The notes under the pieces: model-generated
Told to the model about the DNA's origin: nothing
Database searches by the model: none
What the model saw: the letters and a program-made list of their open reading frames with translations, nothing else
Assembly (NCBI GenBank): GCA_938045315.1
Contig: CALINM010000068.1
Span: 1 to 13,026, forward strand
Direction of reading: 5' to 3'
DNA length: 13,026 bases
Source of the DNA: an uncultured bacterium
GTDB lineage: Bacteria; CALINM01
Part shown: piece after piece, positions 6,919 through 12,696 of the stretch
Numbering within the stretch: position 1 is the stretch's first letter
Layout of the letters: the number at the start of each line of letters is the position of its first letter
Translations under genes and position numbers: made by a program

Positions 6919-6977
6919 CCGTACCTTTTTTGAATTTTAGCCAAAAAACACTTAACTATTTTAAAAAAACTTTAATT

Positions 6978-7311
6978 ATGAATTAAAATAAACATAAAGA
7001 AAAAAGTTTTAAGTTCCATATAACAGTATTTTTAGTGATAATCTTTCTCCCTTCCTATTCGCTTGCCTATTTTTTTATTACAGTTAAAAAGGATAGAATC
7101 TTTGATAAAATTTTAGGGCTTAAGTTAGGGGCCGATGATTACGTTGTAAAACCCTTTGATACTTCTGAACTACTGCGAGGATTAAAGCTTTTTTAAGAAG
7201 ATATGAAGAAAAAAAAGCGGTAAAAAAATATTCCCGACGATATTAGATGAAGAAAAGAGGAGGGTTATTTTTAAAGAGAAAGAAGTTATATTCAGTGTCA
7301 TAGTGTATTAA
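6978..7311 (+). pseudogene. Two-component system remnant: kinase-like N-terminus joined to an OmpR-type response-regulator fragment
   Basis: ATG 6978 is followed by a TAA two codons later. The same frame then reads [20 protein letters not shown] (from 6996): a basic start and one membrane helix, as at the N-terminus of a sensor histidine kinase. Without leaving the frame it passes into [20 protein letters not shown], then [12 protein letters not shown], the beta4-alpha5 end of a receiver domain including the conserved switch Lys before Pro (KPF). One base is missing near 7175. In the next frame [18 protein letters not shown] follows to a TAG at 7244. A further shift gives ILDEEKRRVIFKEKEVIFS, the entry to an OmpR/PhoB winged-helix domain, which is itself missing. 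The receiver phosphorylation Asp and the whole kinase core are absent. The receiver identity is firm; the kinase identity of the first segment is inferred. Confidence 0.75.
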
Positions 7312-7367
7312 ATGAGCATTTAGAAAATTCCGATTCAAAACCATATACAGATTTAGGATTGGATAAC

Positions 7368-8623
7368 TGTGGTTGATGTCATAAGAATCAATATGATTAC
7401 TATTATTGGAGTTAATTATCATAAAAGAGCAAATAAGGAAAAGGTAACGTCAGATGGCAGAGCTCCTCTACTGGACAAACTTCTTGCAGGACATGGGTTT
7501 ACAAAGGAGCACGCTTGAACCACGTAGCCATACTTATATGCTAATTGATCAAATCACAGTTGATAGTACCTATGGTGAAAAATTTCAATATAAAAACCGG
7601 GCCGATATAACAAAATTGCAATGCTTGTAACATTCTTATGGAGACAGATAAAAAAATACCTGATGTTGCAAAAGCAGCAAATCCAACATATATTATTCAG
7701 TGTAAGTCATTGGATTTTGTTATGAAGTGGTCTTATCTGGGTGATAAAAATCCCAAAGCAAAAGGGGATAAAGCTTAAGATATATTTAAGGTCATAAAAG
7801 ACGCGCAAGATACTGTTGGTTGCATCCATTGTCATGCTATCTATGCAGCTAAGGGAAGGGTTATAAGAGATGCGCTTATTCAGTCAGTGCAAAGAGATGG
7901 AGATAGGCCGCCTTTTAGCAAAGTAATGATAAAATGCTTTGGATATAAGAGAGTTTAAAGATTATAGAAAAATAGGGTTGTTAAAAAAACGATTCAGTGA
8001 TTATGTGTGCTCAGTGCCATGTTGAGTATGCATGCAATCCTGGTTTTTGAAAAAGATGATTTCAATAAAAAAATTGGGTTAATGACCAATATTTTCCATG
8101 GAGAAATATCTTTGACGTCTTGAAATTTTACGATGACATAAACTTTAGAGATTACAGACATCCAGTGACAGAAGCTAATTTAATCAAATTTCAAAATCTA
8201 TGGGCAAAGACATCTATGGGTAGTAAACATGAAAGGGCTGGTGTAACCTGTGCAGATTGTCATATGGCAAAAACAAAAAATAAGGCAGGGAAAGTATATA
8301 CATCTCATCTTGCAGCAGGCCCAAAAGAGACCTGCCTTAAATGTCATAAAGATTGGACAGAAAAACAGGCTATCTATACCATTGATAGTGTTAAGAAGTA
8401 CATAAAAGACAAGATAAGAAAATCCGAATACGGGCTTTCTAAATTCATAGATAAATTTGAAGAGGCTAAAAAAGCAGTAATTCCTGAAGATGTTTTGAAA
8501 GAGTCCAGAAAACAGCATGATATAGCCCATCCATATTGGAAGTGGTGGACGGCAAAAAATTCGGATGGTTTTCATAACCCCCATCGGGCAAGAGTTTCTC
8601 TTGGCATTTCAATAGAAGCTTAA
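7368..8623 (+). pseudogene. nrfA: Ammonia-forming cytochrome c nitrite reductase, degraded
   Basis: Pieces in all three frames rebuild a pentahaem NrfA. It would reduce nitrite to ammonium in the periplasm. Landmarks in order: QYD (7389-7397); KVTSDGRAPLLDKLLAGHGF (7441-7500); EPRSHTYM (7517-7540) with the active-site Arg; haem 1 as CNACN (7617-7631), where family members have CxxCK; haem 2 CIHCH (7821-7835); haem 3 CAQCHVEY (8006-8029) with the active-site Tyr; haem 4 CADCHM (8249-8266); haem 5 CLKCH (8333-8347). The tail, QHDIAHPYWKWWTAKNSDGF, is intact to TAA 8623. There are about seven frame changes (near 7405, 7515, 7616, 7955, 8005, 8048 and 8097) and in-frame stops at 7374 and 7776. 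The QHPE motif, whose His is catalytic, reads QNLW (8192-8203). Signal peptide and nrfH are not recognisable. The longest open piece (8099-8623) lacks a start and a signal peptide. Confidence 0.9.
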
Positions 8624-8706
8624 AGAAGGGGTATAGAGATTCTTGATAAAACAATAAAAGAAAAGAATCAGATCACACAGAAGTAAGTTACAAAAAGGGG
8701 GGACTT

Positions 8707-8940
8707 ATGAAGTATTTTTGTTTATCCCGCTTCTGTTCCCCCTAATCTCCTAAGCGCCGATAAACATATAAAAGAGAAGGAGGCTATATCTAAAAATTGT
8801 GTAAATATGCAAATTCCCTATTAGGGGTATGTGCTAGTTAAGGGTTGGTGCCAATCACTTTTAAGAGTGAGGTAATTAAAGCTAAACTGGGTGTGTGATA
8901 ATTATGGGAAAATCGCAAGCATTATTTAGTTAAATATGCA
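8707..8940 (+). pseudogene. Remnant of a small secreted c-type cytochrome
   Basis: A strong ribosome site, AAAAAGGGGGGA (8692-8703), precedes ATG 8707, but the frame closes after 12 codons. Reading across a shift at 8713 gives FLFIPLLFPLIS, a signal-peptide core. A further shift gives SADKHIKEKEAISKNCVN (8753-8806), the cleavage region and start of a mature protein. CVN is followed by an ATGCAA that one base change or deletion would make C-H, i.e. CVNCH. Further on, CAS then a stop then GLVPITF (8830-8862) resembles a second broken CxxCH. End coordinate approximate. It follows the nrfA remnant by 83 bases, so it may once have been an electron-transfer partner. The cytochrome identity is an inference from a signal peptide plus a damaged haem motif. 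Confidence 0.5.
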
Positions 8941-9024
8941 GTATAAATCATTCCTAAATTTTTGATGCTTACTTTAAAATCGAAACAATTGATTTTTTTT
9001 AAAGTTAGTATTAATTTATATGAC
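8941..9024 (+). other. Region upstream of the exporter operon, no clear ribosome site
   Basis: Together with the end of the cytochrome remnant this forms the non-coding approach to the ABC operon. A weak promoter, TTGATT (8989-8994) and TAATTT (9012-9017) with 17 bases between, would start transcription near 9024, directly at the GTG at 9025. There is no Shine-Dalgarno sequence before GTG 9025 or before the alternative ATG at 8965. No terminator or conserved RNA structure was seen. Confidence 0.3.
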
Positions 9025-9768
9025 GTGAAAGAAATAATAATTTTTGACAAGGTTTCGAAAACTTACAATTTAGGATTGGGCAAAAAAAATATTCCAGTGC
9101 TTTTTGACATATCCTTTAAGGTCAAAAGGGGAGAGATTTTTGGTTTTGTTGGCCCAAATGGTGCTGGAAAATCAACAACAATAAAATTGATCCTTAATTT
9201 GATTTATCCAGACAAAGGGGATGTTTTAGTTTTTGGGGTTAAACCAGATGATGCTAAAATTAGAAAAAATATAGGTTATTTACCAGAAATACCAGCTTAT
9301 TTTGATTATCTCACACCTGAGGAACTGGCATGGTTCTCTGGAAGGATTGCCGGGCTCTCTGATAAAGAAATAAGAGAAAGATGTGATGAATTATTTTCAA
9401 GACTTTTTTTTGAAGAACATAGAAAGAAAAAAATTAAAGAACTTTCAAAAGGAAATGCTCAAAAAGCTGGTATTATTGCTACCTTTTTAGCACGTCCAAA
9501 GCTTTTAATATTAGATGAACCTATGACAGGTTTGGATCCTATAGGAAGAAAACTGGTAAGTGATTTAATCCTGGAGTTTAAAGATAAGGGACACACGATT
9601 TTTCTTACTTCCCATATTCTTTCTGATGTAGAAAGGTTATGTGATAGCTTTGCTATTATTAATCATGGAAAAATTAAGTATAGTGATAGCAAAGATAATC
9701 TGATTAAAGCTGGAAGAAATTTAGAAGCAATTTTTTATGAAGTAATTGGCTTAAAAAATAATCATTAG
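9025..9768 (+). CDS. ABC transporter ATP-binding protein (ABC-2 exporter type)
   Basis: A 247-aa ATPase that powers the membrane partner encoded next. Walker A is GPNGAGKST (43-51), followed by a Q-loop region YLPEIP (85-90) in which the usual Gln position is hydrophobic or acidic. The signature is LSKGNAQKAG (140-149), a relaxed form of LSGGQ common in ABC-2 exporters such as NosF. Walker B is LLILDEP (160-166), the D-loop is GLDP and the switch His is in TSHI (H197). I start at GTG 9025 because VKEIIIFDKVSKTY matches the usual N-terminus. ATG 8965 would add 20 residues of unlikely sequence, and neither has a ribosome site. It precedes the permease by 19 nt. The substrate is unknown. A gliding, copper-centre or surface-export role cannot be distinguished. 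Confidence 0.9.
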   Translation: MKEIIIFDKVSKTYNLGLGKKNIPVLFDISFKVKRGEIFGFVGPNGAGKSTTIKLILNLIYPDKGDVLVFGVKPDDAKIRKNIGYLPEIPAYFDYLTPEELAWFSGRIAGLSDKEIRERCDELFSRLFFEEHRKKKIKELSKGNAQKAGIIATFLARPKLLILDEPMTGLDPIGRKLVSDLILEFKDKGHTIFLTSHILSDVERLCDSFAIINHGKIKYSDSKDNLIKAGRNLEAIFYEVIGLKNNH

Positions 9769-9787
9769 TTAACAAAAGGATTTAGTC

Positions 9788-10600
9788 GTGATAAGAAGAG
9801 TTTATCCTTTTATTAAGATTACCTTTTTAGAGGGAATCAGGAATAAAATAGCTTCTGGGATTATTATATTCTCCTTGGTATCGATGCTCTCTAATGTAAT
9901 AATTATAAATTTAGCTGCTCAAGACGTGGGTAAAATTGCTATAGATTTTGCATTGTCAAGTTTTTCTCTTTCAGGACTATTTTTAATTCTTCTTGGATGT
10001 GGTAGTAGTCTTTATAAAGATATTGATAGAAAAACTATATCCCTTGTTTTGAGCAAAGCTATATCAAGACATGAATACATACTTGGTAAGTTTTTCGGTT
10101 ATCTTTTAACATTATTTTTTGTTTTAGGCCTCTCTTCAATCATAGGATTGCTCACACTCTATTTTATAAAGCTCTCCCATCCAAAACATTTTGTGGCACC
10201 ATTTTCTGGAATTTTTCTGGGATACATATTTTCTTTCTTATCTTCTATTTTAATTTTGTGCGTATTGATATTTTTTTCTTCAATTACTACTAGTTCCTTT
10301 ACTGCAATGCTTTTAACAATCATGATTTATTTCATTGGCAATTCAATTGGGGAATTAAGAGATTTTGCAGAATCTCAAGCAGCAATTCAGGCGGGCTTTC
10401 CCCCTGTCTTTAAAAAAATTCTGCTGGTTGTTCATTTTATAGTACCAGATCTGGCAAAGTTAGATTTAAAAATTTTTTCAGCAAATGGTCTTCCAATTCC
10501 TCATGATTTTATTATATTTTCAGTTCTCTATGGGATAATTTATTGTGCTATACTTATTCTTCTTTCAATGAAAGCTTTTGAAAGAAGAGAGTTTGTATAA
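9788..10600 (+). CDS. ABC-2 type transporter permease
   Basis: A 270-aa integral inner-membrane protein with about six hydrophobic helices (roughly residues 20-40, 55-75, 100-125, 135-165, 170-185 and 243-262), the layout of ABC-2/NosY-like permeases. Between helices 2 and 3 the sequence YKDIDRKTISLVLSKAISRH then EYILGKFFG is the cytoplasmic segment typical of this group, where the ATPase docks. The start is GTG 9788, with AAAGGA (9775-9780) seven bases upstream. It ends in TAATG, sharing one base with the next gene, so the three genes are translated in sequence. A longer soluble loop (about 186-238, with GELRDFAESQAAIQ) faces one side of the membrane. The transported substrate is not known. 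Confidence 0.88.
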   Translation: MIRRVYPFIKITFLEGIRNKIASGIIIFSLVSMLSNVIIINLAAQDVGKIAIDFALSSFSLSGLFLILLGCGSSLYKDIDRKTISLVLSKAISRHEYILGKFFGYLLTLFFVLGLSSIIGLLTLYFIKLSHPKHFVAPFSGIFLGYIFSFLSSILILCVLIFFSSITTSSFTAMLLTIMIYFIGNSIGELRDFAESQAAIQAGFPPVFKKILLVVHFIVPDLAKLDLKIFSANGLPIPHDFIIFSVLYGIIYCAILILLSMKAFERREFV

Positions 10601-11442
10601 TGAAGAAAGTTTTTCTTTGGATTATAATTCTTCTTTTGCTGCCAATTCACTATATAAATCTTGAAAAGACAAGGCTTATAAGGCCACTTGTAAAAGAAGA
10701 AAAAATTTTTCTACCCGAATCTTTTATGAAAATTTTTTCAGGTGAGTTTAAGGGAGTTATAGCTGATTTTCTAATTATTAATCTGTCTTCCTATTATGGT
10801 GGCATAATTCTTGAAAAAAAAGAGGCGATACAAAAAGAGTTTGATTATATGTATAGGGTTTTAAAGATAGCAAGTAGTTTAGATCCCTATTACTTCGATA
10901 TTTATTATTTTACCCAATCAATTTTAGCATGGGATGCAAGAATGCCTGATAAAGCAATTGAAATTTTAAAAGTAGGTTCAGAGAAAAGAGAAAATGACTG
11001 GTTACTGCCCTTTTGGATTGGTTTCAATTACTACTATTTTTTAAATGACAGGAAAAGAGCTGCTTTTTACTTTAGAGAAGCATCTAAAAGACCAAATGCA
11101 AGCGACCTTGTGGCTTCAATGTCTATAATTGCTGATTATGAGGGTGGGGAGACGGAAATGGCGATACTTTTTCTGGAGGATATGATTAAAAGAACAGATG
11201 ATGAACATAAAAGAGGTAAATTTTTAATCAGGCTCGATGCATTGAAAAAAATTAGATATCTTGAGCAGGCAGTTGAAAATTATAAAAGAAAATTTGGAAT
11301 GGTCCCAAAAGATTTAAATCAGTTGGTTAGTGAAAATATAATAAGTCAAATTCCTGATGACCCTTATGGTGGTAAGTTTTATATTGACGAGCAAGGTGGG
11401 GTAAAGACTACAAGTAATTTAAGATTTGTAAGAAAAAAATAA
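10600..11442 (+). CDS. Membrane-anchored TPR-like protein with a pseudopilin-like C-terminus
   Basis: A 280-aa protein. A basic start and one hydrophobic helix (MKKVFLWIIILLLLPIHYI) anchor it in the inner membrane or act as an uncleaved signal. Residues about 85-210 form helical repeats of TPR type: LKIASSLDPYYFDIYY, PDKAIEILKVGSEKRENDW and KRAAFYFREASKRPNASD. Residues about 228-280 (YKRKFGMVPKDLNQLV..., then IPDDPYGGKFYIDEQGGVKT) resemble the C-terminal region of type II secretion major pseudopilins (GspG), where DPYGG and a glycine turn bind calcium. No prepilin peptidase site is present. The ATG overlaps the permease stop, so it is almost certainly a working part of the exporter, perhaps a periplasmic adaptor. 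Neither the function nor the fusion is known to me. A terminator follows. Confidence 0.8.
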   Translation: MKKVFLWIIILLLLPIHYINLEKTRLIRPLVKEEKIFLPESFMKIFSGEFKGVIADFLIINLSSYYGGIILEKKEAIQKEFDYMYRVLKIASSLDPYYFDIYYFTQSILAWDARMPDKAIEILKVGSEKRENDWLLPFWIGFNYYYFLNDRKRAAFYFREASKRPNASDLVASMSIIADYEGGETEMAILFLEDMIKRTDDEHKRGKFLIRLDALKKIRYLEQAVENYKRKFGMVPKDLNQLVSENIISQIPDDPYGGKFYIDEQGGVKTTSNLRFVRKK

Positions 11443-11502: not shown

Positions 11503-12696
11503 CTATTTTGAAATTGTAATTGTGATTGGATTGCTAACAGCTGTACCCAGGAGGGTTCCCATATTGTTTCTAAAAACAATTTTTATGATAGCCTTAGAAT
11601 TTTGATTAACAGTAGGTAATGTCCAGTTATAATTACCAGGGTTTCCGTTTAATGTTCCCGCTAATTTCCAGACAAAACTATTATTTAGTTTATAATAAAC
11701 TGATACTTTTGCAGTGTTTGTTAATACAGGTGAACTTGTCCAGTTTATATTTAATGTATTTCCATTTGTTAGAACTTCTCCTCCGGCAGGGGTGTTGATT
11801 GTTGCTAATTCAATAGTAATTGGTAAGTCTGTTTTATCGCTTGCTATCTGGACGTAGTTACTATTGAAAGCACTCACAAGAATCCTACATTTCACATTTT
11901 TCTTAAATAATGAGGTATCAAAGTTATACGAGTTGCTCATTATACCATTTTCGATAGGTATCCAAGTTAATCCATTATTAGTTGAGTATGAAATGTTATA
12001 GTAGGTTGCTTTTGGATGGGGCTCCCATGTAATAGGTAATACAGAACCTGCTTGAAACTTTTCTCCCTCGTTAGGTGAAAGAATCCTAAAATTTGAAGTT
12101 ACAGCGGGAGTAGTTACCTGAATAATGTTACTATTAGGTGAAACATTTCCCACGGCATCAAAGGCTTGAACATAATATGTATAAGTTGTTGATGGAGTAA
12201 TATTGGTATCAGTATAATTTGTAGAACTGGTGTTTGCTATTTCGATGTAGTCTCTAAAAATTTTATAACCACTAACCCCAACATTATCAGTTGCTGCAGA
12301 CCACGATAAAAATATGGATGAATTTGTAACATTATTAGCTGTTAAATTTGTAGGTGCAGTTGGAGGTGTTGTATCTGAGCTATTTACTGGTTTACTATCA
12401 GGATCACCGGGAAATGTCCTTGCATTGATTTCAGTAATATTTGTAAAACCATCACCATCAGAATCCTGATTTTCAATGTTCTGAAAATTGTAACCACTGT
12501 TTAAGTATGCATTACCATAGTTATTAAGAGCTGGTTTTACAGTGTGGCATAAATTGCAACTATCAATTGCCGTGCCTTTTGTACCATAAGTTGTGTTGAA
12601 ACTATTTAAATAACCAGAAACAGCATGAGATTTATTAGAGAAATTGAAAATAAATATTAGAAGCATTATGTAAAAGAAAAAATATTTTTTAATCAT
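11503..12696 (-). CDS. Secreted monohaem cytochrome with EF-hand-like loop, fibronectin III and Ig-like repeats
   Basis: A 397-aa exported protein. The signal peptide spans residues 1-25 (SHA at the cleavage site). A single haem motif, CNLCH (47-51), is followed by a calcium-loop DSDGDGFTNITE (78-89) of the thrombospondin-3/dockerin kind. A fibronectin type III domain spans about 111-197 (PPTAPTNLTA..., WSAATDNVGVSGYKIFRD, YYVQAFDAVGN). Two Ig-like segments (about 202-295 and 297-397) each start with an I-x-x-P-x-x-G-E pattern and an I-x-W strand, so they look like a duplicated unit. Ribosome site AAAGGAGG sits 7 bases before ATG 12696. It is likely an outer-surface or extracellular protein for adhesion and/or electron transfer. 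Similar cytochrome-plus-beta-sandwich proteins occur in metal-reducing bacteria. No sorting signal is seen at the C-terminus. Confidence 0.85.
   Translation of the reverse strand: MIKKYFFFYIMLLIFIFNFSNKSHAVSGYLNSFNTTYGTKGTAIDSCNLCHTVKPALNNYGNAYLNSGYNFQNIENQDSDGDGFTNITEINARTFPGDPDSKPVNSSDTTPPTAPTNLTANNVTNSSIFLSWSAATDNVGVSGYKIFRDYIEIANTSSTNYTDTNITPSTTYTYYVQAFDAVGNVSPNSNIIQVTTPAVTSNFRILSPNEGEKFQAGSVLPITWEPHPKATYYNISYSTNNGLTWIPIENGIMSNSYNFDTSLFKKNVKCRILVSAFNSNYVQIASDKTDLPITIELATINTPAGGEVLTNGNTLNINWTSSPVLTNTAKVSVYYKLNNSFVWKLAGTLNGNPGNYNWTLPTVNQNSKAIIKIVFRNNMGTLLGTAVSNPITITISK

Follow-up and report, generated by a model that had tools for sequence, protein, structure and literature searches.

Remnants of three genes in the window

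The window, which is the whole stretch of 13,026 nucleotides analysed here and the entire contig C68 of G000 (a 1.86-Mb draft genome in 244 contigs, 91.8% complete), carries, over positions 6974-8696, fragments of three genes: one for a sensor histidine kinase, one for a response regulator of the OmpR type and one for an octaheme nitrite reductase (ONR). The fragments are in the same order as the corresponding genes on contig C80 of G002, and the genes flanking them on both sides are open frames. Two genomes were used for comparison, G001 from the same genus and G002 (recorded as ‘Proteobacteria bacterium isolate SKW305’) from the same family; all three are draft assemblies. Apart from this one same-genus and this one same-family genome, all relatives offered for comparison were ‘same domain’ only, which suggests that the lineage stands alone at a high taxonomic rank. 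We called lesions by frameshift-aware alignment to the intact 526-aa ONR on contig C118 of G002 (L031/L058), the nearest intact relative of the broken gene. The features of the locus are as follows:

6974-7083, plus strand: 5’ remnant of the sensor histidine kinase (about residues 2-30, membrane anchor, with a little upstream DNA)
7084-7087, no strand: approximate junction of deletion 1, kinase fused to response regulator (blastn coordinates)
7088-7287, plus strand: middle of the OmpR-type response regulator, about residues 83-153 (blastn, frameshift-aware alignment)
7288-7295, no strand: approximate junction of deletion 2, response regulator joined to ONR within the haem-2 motif (blastn coordinates)
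7293-8696, plus strand: putative ONR pseudogene, residues 58-521 of the 526-aa relative (blastn 74% to the C118 gene of G002; frameshift-aware alignment)
7368-7382, plus strand: haem-3 motif with internal TGA, CG*CH (frameshift-aware alignment)
7523-7525, plus strand: active-site Arg codon, kept, within EPRSH (alignment, sequence)
7617-7631, plus strand: ‘CNACN’ over the YGKAWDIL region, no haem motif (alignment, sequence)
7692-7706, plus strand: haem-4 site, equivalent to the catalytic CxxCK and reading I-I-Q-C-K (alignment, blastn, sequence)
7822-7836, plus strand: haem-5 motif CIHCH, intact (alignment, sequence)
8006-8035, plus strand: intact haem-6 motif CAQCH, with the active-site Tyr at 8027-8029 and Cys at 8033-8035 (alignment, sequence)
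8120-8623, plus strand: longest open frame left in the remnant, 167 aa with a TTG start (open reading frames)
8192-8203, plus strand: QHPE changed to QNLW, catalytic His lost, codon now AAT at 8195-8197 (alignment, sequence)

The frameshift-aware alignment spans positions 7293-8665 with 340 of 466 columns identical, and similarity at the DNA level (blastn) reaches 8696. The ONR remnant is without the first 57 residues and contains eight frameshifts (near 7404, 7513, 7619, 7923, 7931, 7990, 8042 and 8079), three in-frame stops (TGA at 7374, TAA at 7776 and TAA at 8621) and an in-frame deletion of four codons. Haem 1 is absent, haem 2 is cut by the deletion junction, haem 4 has lost its first Cys and kept its second Cys and its Lys (AAG, 7704-7706), and haems 5-8 are undamaged. 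We assigned the active-site Arg, Tyr and Cys from the residues that we take to be their counterparts in TvNiR (Arg131, Tyr303 and Cys305), and all three codons are kept in the window copy.

An initial annotation had described positions 7368-8623 as an nrfA gene broken by frameshifts and stops between intact genes, with the catalytic His of QHPE replaced by Asn and the active-site Arg and Tyr remaining. The alignment bore out the breakage, with breakpoints within tens of bases of those proposed, as well as the His codon and the two retained residues, and the flanking frames are open. The interval itself did contain a broken haem-protein gene but was too short, leaving out the kinase and regulator fragments. 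The same annotation had reported a Lys-to-Asn change (AAC) in a haem-1 motif, ‘CNACN’. We rejected this substitution on the basis of the frameshift-aware alignment, in which 7617-7631 pairs with YGKAWDIL and the real CxxCK lies at 7692-7706.

Two other regions of the window were noted. The 265 bases at 8697-8961 have a gene-like start (an ATG near 8708 after a G-rich stretch) with a frame that is soon broken; this is perhaps another decayed gene, and a search of 8660-8960 against G000, G001 and G002 gave no convincing similarity. Positions 11503-12696 on the minus strand encode a secreted-looking protein of 397 aa that has an fn3 domain and a single CxxCH motif and is intact beside the dead cytochrome gene.

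Assignment of the broken gene

The C118 protein of G002 contains eight haem motifs (CYQCH, CAQCH, CGRCH, CLQCK, CIECH, CAQCH, CADCH and CLRCH), seven being CxxCH and one CxxCK. It matched ONRs of the PDB over nearly its whole length with 531-613 bits (8rv0, 613 bits; 2ot4, 552 bits), compared to 114 bits or fewer for NrfAs, and the best pentaheme NrfA match (114 bits) ran from residue 189 onward only. The NCBIfam NrfA models gave 144 bits against a cut-off of 595 and 136 bits against a cut-off of 692. A pentaheme NrfA would have five haem motifs in place of these eight, and scores above the model cut-offs. ONRs are defined by seven CxxCH and one CxxCK motifs with an active-site Tyr, Arg and Cys (PMC5433712). 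The eight motifs, the PDB scores and the agreement of the relative with this definition indicate, by homology and not by function, that the broken gene is an ONR pseudogene. The nrfA identity was rejected on the same motifs and scores.

The G002 relative is homologous along its full length to 8rv0, Thioalkalivibrio TvNiR (2ot4/2zo5) and TpNiR (3sxq), with which it shares the active-site Arg, Tyr and Y-x-C in addition to the haem motifs, and the window remnant is alignable along residues 58-521. Unlike these ONRs, the window copy is truncated and frameshifted; haem 1 and the catalytic His are missing from it, as are parts of haem motifs 2-4, and it does not have the single open frame with export signal and full haem set of a functional ONR. 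The NrfAs of E. coli (1gu6), W. succinogenes (1fs7) and Desulfovibrio (2j7a) have the C-terminal catalytic domain (Pfam Cytochrom_C552) in common with ONRs, and CxxCK occurs in many members, but they have no three-haem N-terminal domain. In a protein tree with other PF02335 relatives, the remnant and the two ONRs of G002 grouped together at 100/100; the tree does not settle the order of these three (92/66), and its remaining rows are proteins with five haem motifs.

The cluster in related genomes

The kinase remnant matched contig C80 of G002 just before and into the kinase gene (blastn 70%; tblastn 53% over residues 2-35). The regulator remnant was 71% identical to C80 by blastn (E 5e-23) and 77% identical to the intact response regulator of G001; its alignment contained four frameshifts, the first of which (7078) falls at the kinase junction. 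Compared with C80, the window lacks about 1.7 kb at the first junction (blastn coordinates 8683 to 10369 on reversed L057) and about 0.55 kb at the second (10579 to 11125), where the ONR resumes at codon 58. These coordinates point to two deletions that fused the three genes, and to collapse of the entire kinase-regulator-ONR cluster.

G002 has two ONRs, and the C80 copy (cut by the contig end) is placed after the sensor kinase and response regulator. In this kinase, a CxxCH motif lies within a Tll0287-like sensor domain; the regulator is of the OmpR type, with receiver and Trans_reg_C domains. In G001, the response regulator is intact (83% identity to its G002 counterpart) and the kinase, 76% identical to that of G002, is open up to the contig end; unrelated genes follow them, with no ONR; neither an ONR nor a PF02335 match was detected in this draft assembly. 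The genes on the left of the remnant had no close homologue in G001, and on the right the matching G001 contig stops short of the ONR position. The three draft genomes are therefore in three states: two ONRs with the kinase-regulator pair (G002), the pair only (G001) and the collapsed cluster (G000). It is possible, though less likely than not, that ONR ammonification was lost stepwise across G002, G001 and G000, and that the upstream Tll0287-type kinase serves the ONR as its own sensor of redox state or nitrogen oxides. We found no report of a Tll0287-type kinase as ONR regulator, and a literature search gave nothing on ONR loss. Tll0287-like kinases with CxxCH, located at L057:1855-3405 (minus strand, upstream of the ONR in G002) and at L122:5540-6781 (minus strand, without an ONR in G001), are candidate haem-based sensors.

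Decay of the cluster and its likely consequence

We considered it very improbable that the gene is intact and appears broken through errors of sequencing or assembly. Some of the called indels are near short homopolymers (7923, 7990 and 8042) and the draft assembly is fragmented, but against the eight frameshifts and three stops in 1.4 kb, the flanking genes have neither a frameshift nor an in-frame stop in 10,020 bp. If errors were spread evenly, all eight ONR frameshifts would land in the remnant with a probability of about 4e-8. The two large deletions relative to the C80 cluster also argue against errors, as do the substitutions at catalytic residues, where errors are not expected to be concentrated. 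Changes at codon positions 1 and 2 were relatively commoner on the window branch than on that of the intact C118 gene (58:66 vs 10:38, Fisher p 0.002), but a comparison with the other copy, C80, showed no significant excess (32:44, p 0.56), and the substitution pattern alone is thus no proof of decay. True decay is nevertheless well supported by the clustered lesions, the two deletions, the substituted catalytic residue and the intact flanks, with disabling lesions confined to the gene. The initial annotation reached the same conclusion partly from the supposed loss of the haem-1 Lys, an argument that was wrong. A living, shortened two-haem cytochrome encoded by the 167-aa frame at 8120-8623 is just as hard to credit. 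The frame is open with two intact CxxCH motifs (8249-8263 and 8333-8347) and its conservation is a little higher than that of the 5’ part (pN 0.104 vs 0.136), a small difference; however, its TTG start is inside the domain, no export signal is visible, there is no catalytic haem, QHPE is lost and the 4-codon deletion is present.

Another reading accepts the decay and holds that the ONR was lost as another nitrite enzyme took over, such as the siroheme reductase-like (NirA/sulfite-reductase-like) protein of G000 at C65:2634-4982 (L103). This protein of about 782 aa combines two NIR_SIR stretches with a TusA domain at its C terminus, and its gene adjoins that of haem b synthase (AhbD). PF01077 matches were found in G000 and not in G001 or G002, and the best NCBIfam match of the protein is ferredoxin-nitrite reductase, but at 198 bits, far under the family cut-off of 594. 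The TusA domain and the neighbouring haem b synthase gene fit sulfur or haem metabolism equally, and G001 has no ONR and no such enzyme. We regard such a takeover as unlikely; it would supply an added cause for the decay and not replace it.

Very probably, then, the locus is a pseudo-operon, the decayed remains of a kinase-regulator-ONR cluster, with loss of ONR-dependent nitrite reduction. The ancestor would have had one cluster of a Tll0287-type kinase with a haem-motif sensor, an OmpR-type response regulator and an ONR. Two large deletions, in either order, would have joined the 5’ end of the kinase to the regulator and the latter to the ONR. Afterwards or before, the locus would have gained at least eight frameshifts, three stops and the substitutions of the haem Cys and catalytic His. 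Disuse may have relaxed selection on the cluster. Third codon positions differ from the relative by about 50% at a protein identity of about 75%, and the remnant overall still looks selected, from which we infer that selection maintained the gene for most of its past and that the decay is recent. No working ONR could be made from these remains, so that ONR-dependent reduction of nitrite to ammonium would be lost. A second ONR, NrfA or PF02335 match was not found in the 244 contigs of G000, and a DNA search of this genome with the remnant region recovered the window itself as the sole match; an intact copy could be missing from the assembly because it is fragmented and 91.8% complete.

Clustered frameshifts, stops and deletions beside intact neighbours are likewise found in ordinary bacterial pseudogenes, and this well-bounded case is ordinary pseudogenisation in kind; the only unusual point is that a regulatory and enzymatic cluster was struck together. 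Annotation of the gene as nrfA could wrongly credit the organism with making ammonium from nitrite, the opposite of what the sequence indicates. The corrected annotation comes with a testable candidate ONR regulator in a relative, and the three related genomes provide a small natural series for the loss of a nitrite reductase and its regulator.

Among the molybdopterin proteins found in G000, TtrA-like and others, none was recognisable as a nitrate reductase. In G001, a molybdopterin oxidoreductase match at about 7520-8791 of L105 (C33:17519-18790) reads through one TGA and is possibly a selenocysteine formate dehydrogenase.
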